IMG/VR virus record: IMGVR_UViG_3300045806_000074
Location: 1-25,116 of that record
Length of the DNA stretch: 25,116 nucleotides
Strand: one strand, 5' to 3'
From: a virus
A model generated the notes under the pieces. The model had not been told where the DNA came from. It saw nothing but the letters and a program-made list of their open reading frames with translations, and made no database searches. A program made the translations under genes and the position numbers. Position 1 is the first letter of the stretch. The number at the start of each line of letters is the position of its first letter. Below are positions 17,449 through 25,116 of this stretch, in pieces.

Positions 17449-18494
17449 GCGCCCTCGTCTACGCCGGAAGCCTGCCGATCCCCGGCATCTGCCCGCAGCT
17501 CCAGCTTGCGATCGGACTTCCGGCAATCCAGCTATCCGCGAGCTTGTCGGGCGCGCTTTCGCTGCAAGCCTCGCTTACGGCGACGCCGCCCACGGCGAGC
17601 GCGTACTTGGCCGCGCTGTCGACGACGGAAGGGCAACTATCCCTCGCGGCGGCCCTATCGCTACCCGCGGTGGCGTTCGATCTCTCCGTGTCGACGGGGC
17701 TCGAAGCTTCGTTCGCTGCGTCGCTCGCGCTCGTTGCGTCCTTCGAGCTCGGCCTGTCGCTGTCCGCGTTCCTGTCCGCGTCGGTCGGGATCTACGCGTT
17801 CACGTACGAGGGGTCGGGGACGGGGCTTGGCGCGGCCTTGACGACCGCGCTCGCGACATCGTGGGTGGACGGGTCGCCGACGTCGGTCTCGTGCACGGCG
17901 TTTGTCCTCGGCGCGACGAGCACGGCGTCAGGGGTGAACGTAGCCGCGTTCCTGAGCGGGCTCTCGTTTGGGTCGGGACTCACGGTATCGCCGAAGCTTG
18001 CCAGTATCGCCGACCTTTCCCCATTGACTGCGGGCGCGTCGACCCAGGCACAGGCGAGCATCGCGGCGAAGGCGGCAGCGCAAGCGCGGGTCTCCGCGTC
18101 GCTCCGCGCGCGCGGCTCTGTCTCGCTCCCGTCTCCGCAGGCGACCCTCACGGCGCTCGCGACGTACCAGGCGAACCTCGTGGCCTCGCTCTCGCTGGCC
18201 CCGCCGTCCGTGGCCGTGGCCGTGAGTGCGGCAGCAAAGATCGCGGCGAACGTCTCAGCGACCTCTGGACTGATGGCCGCCCTCGGTGCGTGCATGGGGC
18301 GGTTCGACGAAACGCTCTTCGCGTACGCGTACACGGGCACGGGGACGGGGCTTGGCGCGGCCTTGACGACGGCGCTGGCCACGACGTGGGGCGATGGCCT
18401 CACGCCCTCGTCCGGCCCCTGCACGGCGGTCGTGCTGGCGGCCACGGACACGTTCAGCGTCGGCGTACTCGGCGCGTTTTTCGGAGGGGTGTGA
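17445..18494 (+). CDS. Ala/Ser/Leu-rich tail protein with a duplicated module
   Basis: This 349-residue protein starts at ATG 17445 (ATGA overlap). Residues 25-110 are a low-complexity run of Ala, Ser and Leu with periodic LSASLSGALSLQASL-type helices. A module of about 57 residues appears twice, at 116-172 and 292-349. Each copy contains Y-A-x-x-Y followed by GTGLGAALTTALAT, then W-x-DG, a Cys, and a closing hydrophobic AxxLG-type segment. At DNA level 30 bases are identical (17816-17845 and 18341-18370). Between the copies lies another Ala-rich coiled region with AQASIAAKAAAQARVSASLRARG. I do not know the family. Its place between hub/spike and the gp25-like wedge suggests a baseplate or tail-tip component. 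The Ala/Ser-rich helices could be an elongated or membrane-active part, but that is a guess. Confidence 0.72.
   Translation: MSALVYAGSLPIPGICPQLQLAIGLPAIQLSASLSGALSLQASLTATPPTASAYLAALSTTEGQLSLAAALSLPAVAFDLSVSTGLEASFAASLALVASFELGLSLSAFLSASVGIYAFTYEGSGTGLGAALTTALATSWVDGSPTSVSCTAFVLGATSTASGVNVAAFLSGLSFGSGLTVSPKLASIADLSPLTAGASTQAQASIAAKAAAQARVSASLRARGSVSLPSPQATLTALATYQANLVASLSLAPPSVAVAVSAAAKIAANVSATSGLMAALGACMGRFDETLFAYAYTGTGTGLGAALTTALATTWGDGLTPSSGPCTAVVLAATDTFSVGVLGAFFGGV
17816..18370 (+). repeat. Direct repeat pair of 30 bp in the Ala/Ser-rich gene
   Basis: The 30 bases at 17816-17845 and 18341-18370 are identical and encode the GTGLGAALTTAL core of both modules. Around them the protein is similar but the DNA differs. 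The pair therefore reflects an internal module duplication with local homogenisation or constraint. Confidence 0.85.
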
Positions 18495-18495
18495 C

Positions 18496-18894
18496 ATGAC
18501 GCAGCCGGCGAACCTGGGAACATGCTGGGGGACCCCGAACGGTCAAGATCTGTCATCGCCGTCGTACATGGCGACGGGCGCACAGTGCGTCGCTGAGGCC
18601 ATCGCGCGCCGATGGTCGACGACGATGGGGCGGCTCCCGGACGATCCGAACTACGGCTATAATCTTACCGATCTTATCGGGCAGAAGCTCTCCCCGACCG
18701 ACGCGGCGCACGCACAGCAGCAGGCGGCGGCCGAGGCGCTGAAGGACGAGCGCGTGAAGTCCTGCACCGTCACGCTCACGTTCACGAACGGTGCACTAAG
18801 TGTGTCCGCGGTGGGCGCAACGTCCGCCGGCCCGTTCAAACTCGTGGCGAGCGTGTCTGCCGTCGGCGTACAACTGCTCTTGGTGAGCCCTTGA
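18496..18894 (+). CDS. Baseplate wedge protein, gp25/gpW-like (Mu gp46 position)
   Basis: This 132-residue protein starts at ATG 18496, one base after the previous stop. It carries the pattern of lysozyme-like baseplate wedge proteins: an early Ala/Arg helix (AECVAEAIARRWST-like), then GRLPDDPNYGYNLTDLIGQKLSPTDAA ('x-P-x-Y-G-x-x-L-x-x-L'). A helix with HAQQQAAAEALKDERV follows, then a strand pair KSCTVTLTFTNGALSVSAVG. This fold joins the hub to the wedges and starts sheath assembly. It comes directly before the J-like gene, as in Mu and P2. The GTG near its end lies in another frame and does not extend the next gene. Confidence 0.8.
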   Translation: MTQPANLGTCWGTPNGQDLSSPSYMATGAQCVAEAIARRWSTTMGRLPDDPNYGYNLTDLIGQKLSPTDAAHAQQQAAAEALKDERVKSCTVTLTFTNGALSVSAVGATSAGPFKLVASVSAVGVQLLLVSP

Positions 18895-20747
18895 CCTTCC
18901 CCACCCTGAGCGCCGCGCAGCTTTTCACGCCCACCCCGAGCGGGATCGGCGCGTACGGGAACGTGCCGGCCATCCCCGCCACCGGGACGTGGTTCGGGCA
19001 GATGCTCACCGTCGCTACGCGCGTCGGCCTCCCCACGACGTCATGGCAGCCGGGCGCGCCGGAGCGGACGATCTTCGCGGTCGAGGCGGTTACGTTCGCG
19101 AGTTCTGACGTGAACGCATCGATCATCGCGCAGGCAGGATTTCTACAGTCCGCCGCGTCGGGCTCGGTCACCGTCGTCAACAACGACGGGTCGACGACCA
19201 CGATTCCGGTCACCCCCGACCCGAGCAACGCATCCCAGAACCCGACGGGATCGCTCGGCTGGCTCGACCTTCTTGTGCAGTCGACGTACGGCGTCCAGCG
19301 GCTCCCGGCGACCTACTGTTCCGGCCCACTTGCCATCGCAAACACGAAGGCGACCGCAGTGGGCCCTTACATCGGCGGCGCCTACCACGTGGCGAACGCG
19401 GCGACGGGCTCGACGTACAGTAACCCGGCGTCGCTGACCATTCCGTCGAGCATCATCGGCGGATCGGGCGGCACCGTGTCAGCGATCGCGACGGGCACGG
19501 CGACGACGATCCTAACGACGGCCGCGCCCCACGGGCTCGCGGTCAACCAGGTCGCGTACGTGAGCGTGCCCACGTCCGCGGGCGTGTCCGGGCTCGCGGG
19601 CATCTTCGCCGTCGTCATCGCAGTCACGCCGTCGACCCTACAGATCGCGGCGGCGTCGTCGGGGACGTACACGAGCGGAGGGACGATCTACTCCTGCACC
19701 ATCGCGACCATGCAGGCCGATGTTGCGGGCATCGCCAGCAACGCGAGCCCGGGCGCCGTGAACGTCGCGGTAACGCAGAACGCGGGCGTCTACGTCTCGA
19801 ACGTGAGCGGCTGGGCGGGCTCGAACTGGGAGAGCAACACGGCGCTCGTGGCCCGCACCCTGCTCTCCCTCGCGAGCCGCAGCCCGAACGGGCCCGCGCA
19901 GGCGTACACGTACTACGCGCAGAGCGCGGCCACGCTCCTTTCCGCGAAGTCTCCGCCGTACACGCTGACCAACGGCCCCGTCGTCGCCAACGCGTTCGGC
20001 AACCCCGCGACCGGGATCGTGACGGTCGTGTGCGCGTCCTCGACGCCGGCCTCGACCACGCTGGGCGGCGCGGTCACTCCGGGGTGCGCCCAGCTCCACG
20101 TCACGGGCGCGACCGCAGCCAACCCGTGCGTCATCACGACGGCCAGTCCGCACGGGATCCCGGTCGGCTCGACCATGACCGTCACCATCTCCGGGCTGCT
20201 TGGGCTCGCCGGGGTCAACGGCACGTGGCTCGCCACCTACGTGAGCGCGACGACGTTCTCGATCCCGGTGAACACGTCGAGCGCTGGCGCGTGGTCTGGC
20301 GGGGGCCAGGTCGAGGGCGGCGACCTCGGACAGATCGACGCGCTCCTCCAGGCGAACGTCACTCCCGACAACACGACCGCACTCGCCGTCAGCGCCCTCG
20401 CACTGCCCATCACCATCACGGCCACGGTCACGGTCCCCCAGGCGTACGTCGCGAGCTACCGCATCGCGGCCCTCGCCCAACTCGCGACGCAGATCGCGAT
20501 CTACCCCCTCGGCGGCTACGCGGCCTCGACGCCACCGTACTCCGTCCCGTGGACGGACATCCTGTCTGCACTCGAGGAAGCCGGCGTCGTCACCATCGGG
20601 GGCGCCTCCTACGTCGAGGGCGTGTCGGCGCTCAGCGTGTCGGGCAACGGGTCGACGATCCTGTCGAGCGGACTCGGGATCGCGTTCCCATCGAATTTGT
20701 ACCAGGCGATCCTATCCACCGTCTCACTCTCCGTGTTGGGCGTTTGA
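18891..20747 (+). CDS. Baseplate J-like protein (Mu gp47 / P2 gpJ) with two inserted beta modules
   Basis: This 618-residue protein starts at TTG 18891, overlapping the previous stop (TTGA). No ATG or GTG is available nearby in frame. J proteins are the wedge components that connect the hub to the fibres and are usually 300-400 residues. The excess here comes from two AHG-type beta modules at about residues 196-266 (TAAPHGLAVNQVAYV ... SGGTIYS) and 403-476 (TASPHGIPVGSTMTV ... SGGGQVEG). Core sequence includes WFGQMLTVATRVGLPTTSW near the start, GWAGSNWESNTALVARTLLSLASRSPNGP in the middle, and a C-terminal end with TVPQAYVASYRIAALAQLATQI and YPLGGYAASTPPYSVPWTDILSALEEAGVV typical of J. The next gene overlaps the stop (TGATG). 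Confidence 0.83.
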   Translation: MTFPTLSAAQLFTPTPSGIGAYGNVPAIPATGTWFGQMLTVATRVGLPTTSWQPGAPERTIFAVEAVTFASSDVNASIIAQAGFLQSAASGSVTVVNNDGSTTTIPVTPDPSNASQNPTGSLGWLDLLVQSTYGVQRLPATYCSGPLAIANTKATAVGPYIGGAYHVANAATGSTYSNPASLTIPSSIIGGSGGTVSAIATGTATTILTTAAPHGLAVNQVAYVSVPTSAGVSGLAGIFAVVIAVTPSTLQIAAASSGTYTSGGTIYSCTIATMQADVAGIASNASPGAVNVAVTQNAGVYVSNVSGWAGSNWESNTALVARTLLSLASRSPNGPAQAYTYYAQSAATLLSAKSPPYTLTNGPVVANAFGNPATGIVTVVCASSTPASTTLGGAVTPGCAQLHVTGATAANPCVITTASPHGIPVGSTMTVTISGLLGLAGVNGTWLATYVSATTFSIPVNTSSAGAWSGGGQVEGGDLGQIDALLQANVTPDNTTALAVSALALPITITATVTVPQAYVASYRIAALAQLATQIAIYPLGGYAASTPPYSVPWTDILSALEEAGVVTIGGASYVEGVSALSVSGNGSTILSSGLGIAFPSNLYQAILSTVSLSVLGV

Positions 20748-22087: not shown

Positions 22088-23392
22088 ATGACGACAGGAC
22101 TCGTTCTTTCCGGCAGCGCAGTCAACGTTACGTCGCCTCTCGCGTCCTCTGTCACGGGGCTCGCCAACAACGGTGCCGGGCTCGTCCGCGTCACGACCTT
22201 CGCGCCTCACCTTTACGCGCAAGGGGACGTCGTCTTCATCAACTGCGGATCGACGCTGACCGGGTTGTTCCCCATCAACGTCATCACATCCAACACGTTC
22301 GACTTGCAGGGCTCGACGTTCACCTCGACCGCGACCGGCGCAGCCACGGACATGAGCCTTACGCCGCAGATCATGTGCCCTGTCGACGGAATGCCGATGA
22401 GCGCACAGCTATCGGGTCTCCTCTCCTCGCTCCAGGGGATCATGGATCGCACGCAGTACCTCACGTTCCTGCTCAACAGCGGGATCCAGAGCGGGAGCGC
22501 GGCGTTCACGTCGAGCGGCGCGTGGACGTGTCCAGTCTCGGTTAGGTGGGCGCTCGCAGTCGTGGTCGGCGGGGGCGGCGGGGGCGGGGGCGGGATGGTC
22601 GGTACCCCGACCACAGCGAATCAGACGTGCGGGGGCGGGGGCGGCGGCGCGGCGGACCTCGCAATCGTTCCCCTCTCGGTCACCCCCGGCACGACGTACA
22701 CGGTCACCGTTGGCGCGGGCGGTACAGCGGGCGTAGCCGGCACGGGGCTCGGCGCATCGCTCCCGACCGCAGGAGGCCGCGGCGGGGACTCCGTGTTCTC
22801 GTCCGTCATCTCGCGCGGCGCCGTGGGAGGCGGAGCGCAGACCAACGCGCTCACGCCCTACGCGACGGCTGGGTCGGTATTGGCTGTGCTTGGGGGGGCT
22901 GAAGGCTACCACGCCACGCAGGCGCAGCCGGCCGGCAACGGGCCGTGGCTCGCGAACGCGGCAGGCACAACGCAGCTACCGATCTTCCCACAGGGCTCGT
23001 GCCAGGGCGGGCACTCGTTCGCCGAGGGTGCCGCGACGTACCCCGCGTGGCCTGGCGCGGCAGGGGTCGGTAACTCGTCCCCGGGCGGGGCGGCAGGCGC
23101 GGTCGGGGCGAACTCGGGATTGTACATCGGAGGCGCGGGCGGAGGGGGCGGCGCGGGCGGCCCGGGCGGAACTGGGAGCGGAGGCGGAGGCGCGGGCGGA
23201 GCCGGCGGTAACGCGAACTCGGGCGGCGTCGGCGTCGTCGGCGGGAACGGAACGAACGGCGCGGCGTTCTCCGGGTCGGGTGGCGGTGGTGGCGGTGCGG
23301 GCGGGTCGGGCACGTCGAGCGGTCACGGCGGGGCAGGGGGCGCGGGCGGGTCGGGCGTTGTGGCGCTCTTCTGGATTCAGGGGGCCGCATGA
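22088..23392 (+). CDS. Glycine-rich tail fibre / adhesin-like protein
   Basis: This 434-residue protein has a strong GAGGTGAT ribosome binding site (22077-22084) that overlaps the preceding stop. The first 90 residues carry another compact beta module (LVRVTTFAPHLYAQGDVVFINCG ... SNTFDLQGS). A short helical linker follows (GLLSSLQGIMDRTQYLTFLL). From about residue 140, the sequence FTSSGAWTCPVSVRWALAVVVGGGGGG begins a glycine-rich receptor-binding domain. It contains many GG-rich loops and ends GAGGSGVVALFW, the usual end of this domain family. Related domains in phage adhesins form polyglycine-II-type sandwiches whose loops bind the host surface. It probably determines host recognition. The DNA of 23110-23360 is correspondingly low in complexity. 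Confidence 0.75.
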   Translation: MTTGLVLSGSAVNVTSPLASSVTGLANNGAGLVRVTTFAPHLYAQGDVVFINCGSTLTGLFPINVITSNTFDLQGSTFTSTATGAATDMSLTPQIMCPVDGMPMSAQLSGLLSSLQGIMDRTQYLTFLLNSGIQSGSAAFTSSGAWTCPVSVRWALAVVVGGGGGGGGGMVGTPTTANQTCGGGGGGAADLAIVPLSVTPGTTYTVTVGAGGTAGVAGTGLGASLPTAGGRGGDSVFSSVISRGAVGGGAQTNALTPYATAGSVLAVLGGAEGYHATQAQPAGNGPWLANAAGTTQLPIFPQGSCQGGHSFAEGAATYPAWPGAAGVGNSSPGGAAGAVGANSGLYIGGAGGGGGAGGPGGTGSGGGGAGGAGGNANSGGVGVVGGNGTNGAAFSGSGGGGGGAGGSGTSSGHGGAGGAGGSGVVALFWIQGAA

Positions 23393-23919
23393 GCCGACTC
23401 GACGTACTGCTCAAAGGCATCTACCAGATCCTGATCGGAGGCTCTCCACTGCCGCGCGAGCCTGGACTCGATCTCGTCGCGGGATCGAACGTCACAATCA
23501 CGAGCGTTGACGACCCCACAAACGGAATCTCGCACGTCACGATCGCGAGCTCCGGTGGCTCCAGCTCCACCCCTACCCCTATCCTCTACCTCACCGCCGC
23601 CGCGACGGTCACCATCTCCGGGGCCGTCCAGGTGGTCGGCGTCGACACGAGCGCGGCCGGCACCTACGCCGTCACGCTCCCGGCGATGACCGATGGCCAG
23701 GTGGTGCAGATCGACGACCATAACGGGACCTGGGTCGTGAGCGGCGCACCGACGATCGTCCCTCCCACGAGCGTTTGGATCGAGAACCCGCAAGGGTCCG
23801 CGGTCGTGCTGGGGCCGTCCGCGCTGACGCTCCCTGCCGTGGCCGGAGTCCCGCGCAGCTCGTACCGGTTCACCTACTACGCCAACGCCACGACGCACCC
23901 GACCCTCAAGGTGAGCTAA
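23389..23919 (+). CDS. Small beta-rich tail-tip or fibre-associated protein of unknown family
   Basis: This 176-residue protein starts at ATG 23389, overlapping the fibre stop as ATGA. A short amphipathic N-terminus (MSRLDVLLKGIYQILIGG) is followed by LDLVAGSNVTITSVDDPTNGISHVTIASSGG, a pattern of short strands often seen at the attachment end of phage fibre proteins. The second half continues as strands with Val/Thr/Ala (VTISGAVQVVGVDTSAAGTYAVTLPAMTDGQVVQIDD) and ends LRFTYY-like strands. No catalytic motif is visible. A trimerising fibre segment or a fibre accessory is likely from context. I do not recognise a named family. Confidence 0.65.
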   Translation: MSRLDVLLKGIYQILIGGSPLPREPGLDLVAGSNVTITSVDDPTNGISHVTIASSGGSSSTPTPILYLTAAATVTISGAVQVVGVDTSAAGTYAVTLPAMTDGQVVQIDDHNGTWVVSGAPTIVPPTSVWIENPQGSAVVLGPSALTLPAVAGVPRSSYRFTYYANATTHPTLKVS

Positions 23920-23920
23920 C

Positions 23921-25116
23921 ATGCGCCTCCCCCTCTATCTCTTCCCCCTGCTGGCGCTCGTCGCCTGCACCACGACAGTCTTCGAGCCCGACGCGACCGC
24001 GCGCGCGCTGGGCTCGCTGGGCGTCGAGACGATCCAGCACCGACTTGGCAGCGCGGGCCCGATCAGCCTCCCCGCCTCGTTCCTCACGGCGGGCGGGGAC
24101 CTCGCGACGGGGGGCGTCGTCGCGCAGGCCCAGTTCGGCGCGATATCGTTCTCCTCGACCGGGCAGGTCGCGTGCTCGACCGGCATGACGAACTGCCAGT
24201 TCAAGCAGGCGACGAAGGCGTCCGACACGGCGACGAACGCGATGAGCATCCAGGCTCAGGGCGCATTCGCGGGCGCGACGGTCAACCCCAACGGGGGCGG
24301 GGTAACGATCCAGTCTGGGGCTGGCGCCACAACGAACGGCAGCCCGGGCGCGATCGCGCTGAACATTCCTGCCCCAACCGGTACCGGGGTCGAGGGGGCC
24401 GCCCTGTTCGAGCGCGGAGGGACGCTGGTAGGGGCGATCGGCGCCTACCCGACCAATCCTGCCTATGGCGCGCTGTGGCTCGGCGGGACCAAGGGGGCAA
24501 CGAACTGGGCGCAGATCGGCGACGGGGTAACGTTCACTCAGCTCAACTCGCCGACCACGTCCAGTACCACGTACTTCTCCGCCGGCGGCACGACAGAGGC
24601 GATTCTCTCCGCGAGCGGCCTGACGCTCGGGGCCTCTGCGGCGCTTGGCGGCGGCGTAGGTGGGACGATCGGAATCACGAGCGGCACGACTGGGGTCACC
24701 GGGGGCGTATCCACCGGATCGATCATCCAGAGCTACAACAACAACCTGAGCCTGTGGGCGCCCGCTGCGACGAACGCCGCAGGGGGCGTCGTGCTCAACC
24801 TCGGAGCGACGGGCACCGGGACCGAGCCTGCGCTGGAGATCACCAACGGCGGTTCGCCGGTCATGTGGCTCCAGCGACAGGGGGCTGGCATCGGAGCGAT
24901 CTACCTCTACGGTGGGGCCACACCGACCGCGAGCAACATGAGCATCGTGGCCGGCTCCGGGTACACGTACCTGAACGCGGCGTCGAATGTTGGCCAGCTA
25001 CTCGGCAACGCGACGTACCTCACCTACGGGGGGAGCGGCTATTACAACCTCTTCAGCTCGACCGGGAGCGCGTACGGAGGCTCCAACACGCTCAACCTGA
25101 ACGCGGGGACCGAGAT
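23921..25116 (+). CDS. Putative phage-encoded lipoprotein with long fibre-like beta domain (3' end outside the window)
   Basis: An ATG at 23921, one base after the previous stop, opens a frame that stays open to the window end (398 codons so far). Residues 1-16 look like a lipoprotein signal: MRLPLYLFPLLALVAC, with lipobox L13-V-A-C16. Lipoprotein signal peptidase would cut before C16. The mature part is Gly/Thr/Ser/Asn-rich beta sequence resembling tail-fibre shaft. It has segments such as ATNAMSIQAQGAFAG, EGAALFERGG-type strands, SASGLTLGASAALGGG, and PALEITNGGSPVMWLQRQG. The Cys after the signal is followed by Thr-Thr-Thr, and two more Cys lie near residues 87 and 94. Structural tail proteins do not normally carry such signals. 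A surface lipoprotein (superinfection exclusion or host-surface modification) or a fibre with an accidental signal are both possible. Confidence 0.68.
   Translation, partial: MRLPLYLFPLLALVACTTTVFEPDATARALGSLGVETIQHRLGSAGPISLPASFLTAGGDLATGGVVAQAQFGAISFSSTGQVACSTGMTNCQFKQATKASDTATNAMSIQAQGAFAGATVNPNGGGVTIQSGAGATTNGSPGAIALNIPAPTGTGVEGAALFERGGTLVGAIGAYPTNPAYGALWLGGTKGATNWAQIGDGVTFTQLNSPTTSSTTYFSAGGTTEAILSASGLTLGASAALGGGVGGTIGITSGTTGVTGGVSTGSIIQSYNNNLSLWAPAATNAAGGVVLNLGATGTGTEPALEITNGGSPVMWLQRQGAGIGAIYLYGGATPTASNMSIVAGSGYTYLNAASNVGQLLGNATYLTYGGSGYYNLFSSTGSAYGGSNTLNLNAGTE

Follow-up and report, generated by a model that had tools for sequence, protein, structure and literature searches.

A fibre-like protein with a lipoprotein signal, encoded in a phage tail cluster and probably displayed on the host

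The last gene of the window, the full 25,116-base virus record, lies in a tail cluster and joins a lipoprotein-type signal to a long, repetitive, fibre-like body, and the same arrangement recurs in a second phage. Judging by its N-terminal sequence, the product is very likely a genuine lipoprotein, and we think it likely that it works on the host envelope and not in the virion; the fibre-like protein is probably put on display by the phage on its host, not carried on the phage tail. We give about even weight to the fuller proposal that the product is made late, is fibre-like and anchored by lipid in the envelope, and interferes with adsorption. Adsorption interference as its function, which we draw from analogy with smaller phage lipoproteins, we hold tentatively, at slightly under even weight.

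The gene, its start and its signal sequence

The first-pass annotation had described an open reading frame of at least 398 codons at position 23,921 with an LVAC lipobox at residues 13-16, and both observations hold. The frame opens with ATG and runs without a stop to the contig end, and residues 13-16 of its product read L-V-A-C, in the correct geometry for a lipobox and with the start fixed by a Shine-Dalgarno sequence. Because the window is the entire record, the remaining 3′ part of the gene is absent from this genome.

23921..25114, + strand: gene for the predicted fibre-like lipoprotein, 398 codons, 3′ truncated by the contig end (complete relative, 627 aa)
23921..23968, + strand: signal peptidase II-type signal MRLPLYLFPLLALVAC, assigned by the lipobox rule, with predicted lipidated Cys16 and Thr at +2
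23908..23915, + strand: Shine-Dalgarno sequence AAGGTGAG, within the 3′ end of the upstream gene
23969..24055, + strand: linker after the predicted lipid-anchor Cys, unalignable with the relative

The 16 N-terminal residues have the form of a textbook signal-peptidase-II signal, with MR as the n-region and LPLYLFPLLALV as the h-region ahead of the lipobox. The upstream gene stops with TAA at 23917-23919, leaving one base before the ATG. We rejected a wrong start as the source of the signal, because the Shine-Dalgarno sequence, whose 3′ end lies five bases ahead of the ATG, forms a duplex of −6.9 kcal/mol with the anti-Shine-Dalgarno sequence and the next in-frame start comes only at codon 89.

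Signals were scored with a lipobox rule that takes a Cys at positions 14-36, A, G or S at −1 and an aliphatic residue or Phe, Met or Ala at −3, together with K or R in the n-region and an uncharged, hydrophobic h-region. With this rule, which was devised after the N-termini of both the window protein and its relative had been seen, ORF 23921 was the only one of the 161 window ORFs of at least 60 aa to pass at its first start, and the background rate among internal starts was 0.9% for the window and 0.5% for the related phage. The rule picked exactly Rz1 and Bor in lambda, exactly Llp in the T5 late region and one antisense ORF in P2; no tail-fibre gene of these three phages passed. In Myxococcus phage Mx8 it picked one antisense ORF as well as p58 and p59 (L013:33297-33722 and 33787-34251, − strand), which directly adjoin virion structural genes and are not annotated as lipoproteins in the Mx8 record.

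A relative in a second phage

The first-pass annotation had raised the question of whether homologues sit in phage fibre loci. Among 2.9 million viral contigs (IMG/VR) we found one relative, a complete gene of 627 aa in a 70.9-kb phage, and its locus is likewise a tail cluster with gp25-like and baseplate J genes. The two phages have nearly nothing else in common (blastn and tblastx, 21 kb compared). The N-terminus of the relative, MTNLRLIAFALLCTVLPAC, is also a lipoprotein-type signal with a lipobox, in which Pro at −2 is an unusual residue. The pairing of such a signal with a fibre-like protein in a tail cluster is thus found in both phages, although the N-termini themselves cannot be aligned.

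Along the gene, similarity to the relative is sharply mosaic. DNA identity is about 96% over residues 56-125 and 261-398 (dS 0.04-0.05). Divergence is strong over residues 126-235, where dS rises to about 1.3, and the first ~45 codons are either saturated or beyond alignment. Two blocks are shared with the other phage.

24087..24296, + strand: block with 97.6% DNA identity, recent exchange
24627..25116, + strand: block with 91% DNA identity (96% over residues 261-398), containing the second copy of the tandem module

From the near-identical body blocks and unalignable N-termini, we conclude that fibre parts were recently exchanged and the N-termini were not. It is unlikely that two unrelated N-termini would both pass a rule met by fewer than 1% of background starts by chance, and this speaks for selection on the signal; it is very probably real and selected, the members known being two and the test resting on their two N-termini.

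IMG/VR searches with peptides taken from the gene and its orthologue, from the upstream gene and from the baseplate genes returned only this relative, and a genome-collection scan, phage records (tblastn) and plasmids yielded no further relatives of the gene; weak matches in the phage-record searches (tblastn), at E 1 or worse, were dismissed as chance. A profile search covering about 800 genomes from two phyla found no homologue, a weak negative as it had no positive control. The idea that the gene was recruited from a host adhesin is therefore not supported, since neither the genome-collection scan nor the profile searches found a cellular homologue. A scan for close relatives of the window phage by major capsid yielded just one fragment, of 13.5 kb, which stops short of the tail-fibre region, and a search of genomes with the terminase of Mx8, aimed at myxobacterial genomes, returned mostly Desulfobacterota.

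Protein body and genomic neighbourhood

A Gly/Thr/Ser-rich body resembling a fibre shaft had been noticed at the outset, and composition and repeats agree with that description, but structure prediction gave no fold. The window protein contains 17.8% G, 14.3% A, 12.8% T and 8.5% S, with D, E, K and R together at about 5%, and a module built around the TGTGxE motif occurs in it twice in tandem. The alignment of the copies is modest in both proteins, scoring 89 in the window protein, where 300 shuffles reached at most 80, and 97 in the relative, where shuffles reached at most 94. AlphaFold2 reached a pLDDT of 33 for the 627-aa relative with a two-row alignment. The relative ends in a further C-terminal region of about 130 aa; its last 131 residues alone were predicted at pLDDT 49, and Foldseek of this prediction against the PDB gave nothing below E 0.7. 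The lipoprotein matched no Pfam, PHROG, NCBIfam or PADLOC family, and no solved structure matched it convincingly; neither member has a match in Pfam, PHROG or NCBIfam, tail-fibre families included. "Fibre-like" therefore refers here to sequence and not to fold. A generic tail-fibre motif matched Xanthomonas and Streptomyces phages and was dropped, as the window protein is not demonstrably homologous.

The gene adjoins a tail connector-like gene in both phages, within a context formed in each by gp25-like wedge and baseplate J genes.

23389..23919, + strand: upstream 176-aa gene, C-terminal 107 aa with 42% identity to the gene preceding the orthologue
22088..23392, + strand: Gly-rich tail protein (PF21722; PHROG 863, tail)
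18891..20747, + strand: baseplate J-like protein, context
18394..18894, + strand: baseplate wedge (gp25-like) protein, context

The corresponding upstream gene of the relative (268 aa, L002:9057-9863) weakly matches PHROG 967, baseplate wedge tail fibre connector. It differs from the 176-aa protein in its N-terminal part, and the C-terminal domain common to both phages indicates a two-gene module beside tail genes. The gene had been placed at the end of the tail-fibre cluster; the tail-cluster context stands, but the end is really that of the contig, for in the relative further tail genes, coding for a gpI-like and a 1238-aa tailspike-like protein (both named by eye), lie about 3 kb beyond it. 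Ahead of these, 3′ of the relative's gene, come proteins with hydrophobic segments, a papain-like peptidase and an 88-aa lipoprotein-like gene, and the hydrophobic-segment proteins and this second, small lipoprotein-like gene are as in a lysis or exclusion region.

The 88-aa gene (L002:14224-14490, + strand; MNRRHFYACLVALSAACST) has four further Cys and sits between a small membrane-protein-like ORF and the peptidase, a papain-family cysteine peptidase in the tail/lysis region (L002:13256-14149, + strand; PF00112, E 1e-7); in size the 88-aa product would suit a lipoprotein of the Llp/Cor or spanin type. Elsewhere the same phage encodes a small lipoprotein-like ORF close to the contig end (MRATIVLLAFAACGGSVDAGDAGDAGDAG; L010, G001 69962-70189, − strand) and a pair of SGGxDS-motif proteins that look QueC-like by eye (G001 59711-60433 and 61266-61964, − strand; L009/L010), possibly of deazapurine metabolism or DNA modification.

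The N-terminus of the window protein, signal and linker, has no likeness to any other protein of either phage, and we thus see no shared virion-attachment domain. In neither record did we find a paralogous virion fibre that the lipoprotein might mimic, which leaves the idea of mimicry of the phage's own fibre without support.

Proposed function and alternatives

We propose that the protein would be exported through the inner membrane, cleaved by signal peptidase II before Cys16 and lipidated, and would stay tethered by its lipid in the outer membrane or at the surface, with a flexible linker, then the repetitive fibre-like body and, as in the complete relative, the further C-terminal region. 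Made late, together with the tail and lysis genes, it would act on the envelope of the infected cell and keep further virions off the receptor of the dying cell and its debris, the outcome being superinfection or adsorption exclusion. Receptor blocking had been one suggestion of the first-pass annotation, and what speaks for it is analogy: known exclusion lipoprotein genes adjoin receptor-binding genes, with T5 llp on the downstream side of the receptor-binding gene pb5 and those of other coliphages downstream of gpJ (PMC9586334). The superinfection-exclusion lipoprotein Rtp45 is a protein of about 6 kDa (PMC12685063).

Like T5 Llp, the Cor family and Rtp45, whose genes lie beside tail or receptor-binding genes, the window protein is phage-encoded, has a signal-peptidase-II signal and is specified next to a tail connector-like gene. 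Those proteins, however, are small, periplasmic and receptor-acting, whereas the window protein has at least 398 aa (627 in the relative) and a fibre-like body. T5 Llp is a 77-aa precursor, and the small mature protein of the Llp/Cor type (about 60-100 aa) has no counterpart here; no sequence similarity to Llp, Cor or Rtp45 was detected. By position and signal the gene may work like Llp-type exclusion factors, but its size and sequence exclude it from those families. TP-J34 Ltp is likewise a phage-encoded, membrane-tethered superinfection-exclusion lipoprotein, but it has 142 aa, belongs to a lysogeny module in a phage of a Gram-positive host and blocks DNA injection. Lambda Lom offers a parallel in position, its gene lying directly 3′ of the tail-tip gene J, but Lom is an integral outer-membrane protein and not a lipoprotein fibre.

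We ranked three alternatives in the order adhesin, virion fibre and lysis accessory. The protein could be a surface adhesin or decoration that the phage makes for its host (lysogenic or pseudolysogenic conversion), aiding attachment or aggregation and not blocking phages. A large repetitive body on a lipid anchor is an adhesin-like layout, and surface lipoproteins that mediate cell-cell contact exist, such as TasL in Vibrio (PMC9040878); however, the gene lies in a tail/lysis cluster in both phages, we noticed no integrase or lysogeny gene close to it and no adhesin family matched, so we regard this reading as improbable. Next comes a normal tail fibre of the virion with an N-terminus that resembles a lipoprotein signal by chance. 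Position in the tail cluster, fibre-like repeats, a mosaic exchange such as host-range genes typically show and a connector-like upstream gene whose C-terminal domain is common to both phages would all suit it, and side tail fibres (lambda Stf, P2 gpH) resemble it in the tail-cluster position, the modular exchange and, judged by composition and the tandem module, a repetitive shaft-like sequence. Such fibres, however, have no lipoprotein signal and bear an N-terminal virion-attachment domain; the window protein, though tail-cluster encoded like them, shows no such domain, nor do the two phages share a virion-attachment N-terminus. The lipobox rule passes none of the fibres tested from lambda, T5 or P2, but it passes both unalignable N-termini, against 0.5-0.9% of background starts, and a virion fibre with a misleading N-terminus appears quite unlikely.

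The neighbourhood of the relative, where the gene precedes hydrophobic-segment proteins and a small lipoprotein-like gene, would also accommodate a role in lysis, as an accessory lipoprotein that is encoded with lysis genes and either resembles an outer-membrane spanin or disrupts the envelope. Outer-membrane spanins (Rz1-like) are short, Pro-rich and nested with or next to an i-spanin, however, and the window protein is much too large and too Gly/Thr/Ser-rich, is not nested with an i-spanin and matches no lysis family, which makes this reading very unlikely.

To our knowledge, phage exclusion lipoproteins are small. What is already known is the small exclusion lipoprotein beside receptor-binding genes, and what would be new is a phage surface lipoprotein, as predicted here, of fibre size. 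We suggest, as a possibility short of an even chance, that there is a class of exclusion or display factors that combine a lipoprotein anchor with a tail-fibre-like body, in which the membrane-tethered fibre occupies or masks a receptor and the fibre part is swapped between unrelated phages like a host-range gene. A fibre-sized exclusion lipoprotein beside tail genes, its parts swapped between phages that are otherwise unrelated, would allow a tail protein to be tested directly together with its matching surface lipoprotein and, if true, would mean that phages reuse an adhesion-protein architecture on the infected cell.
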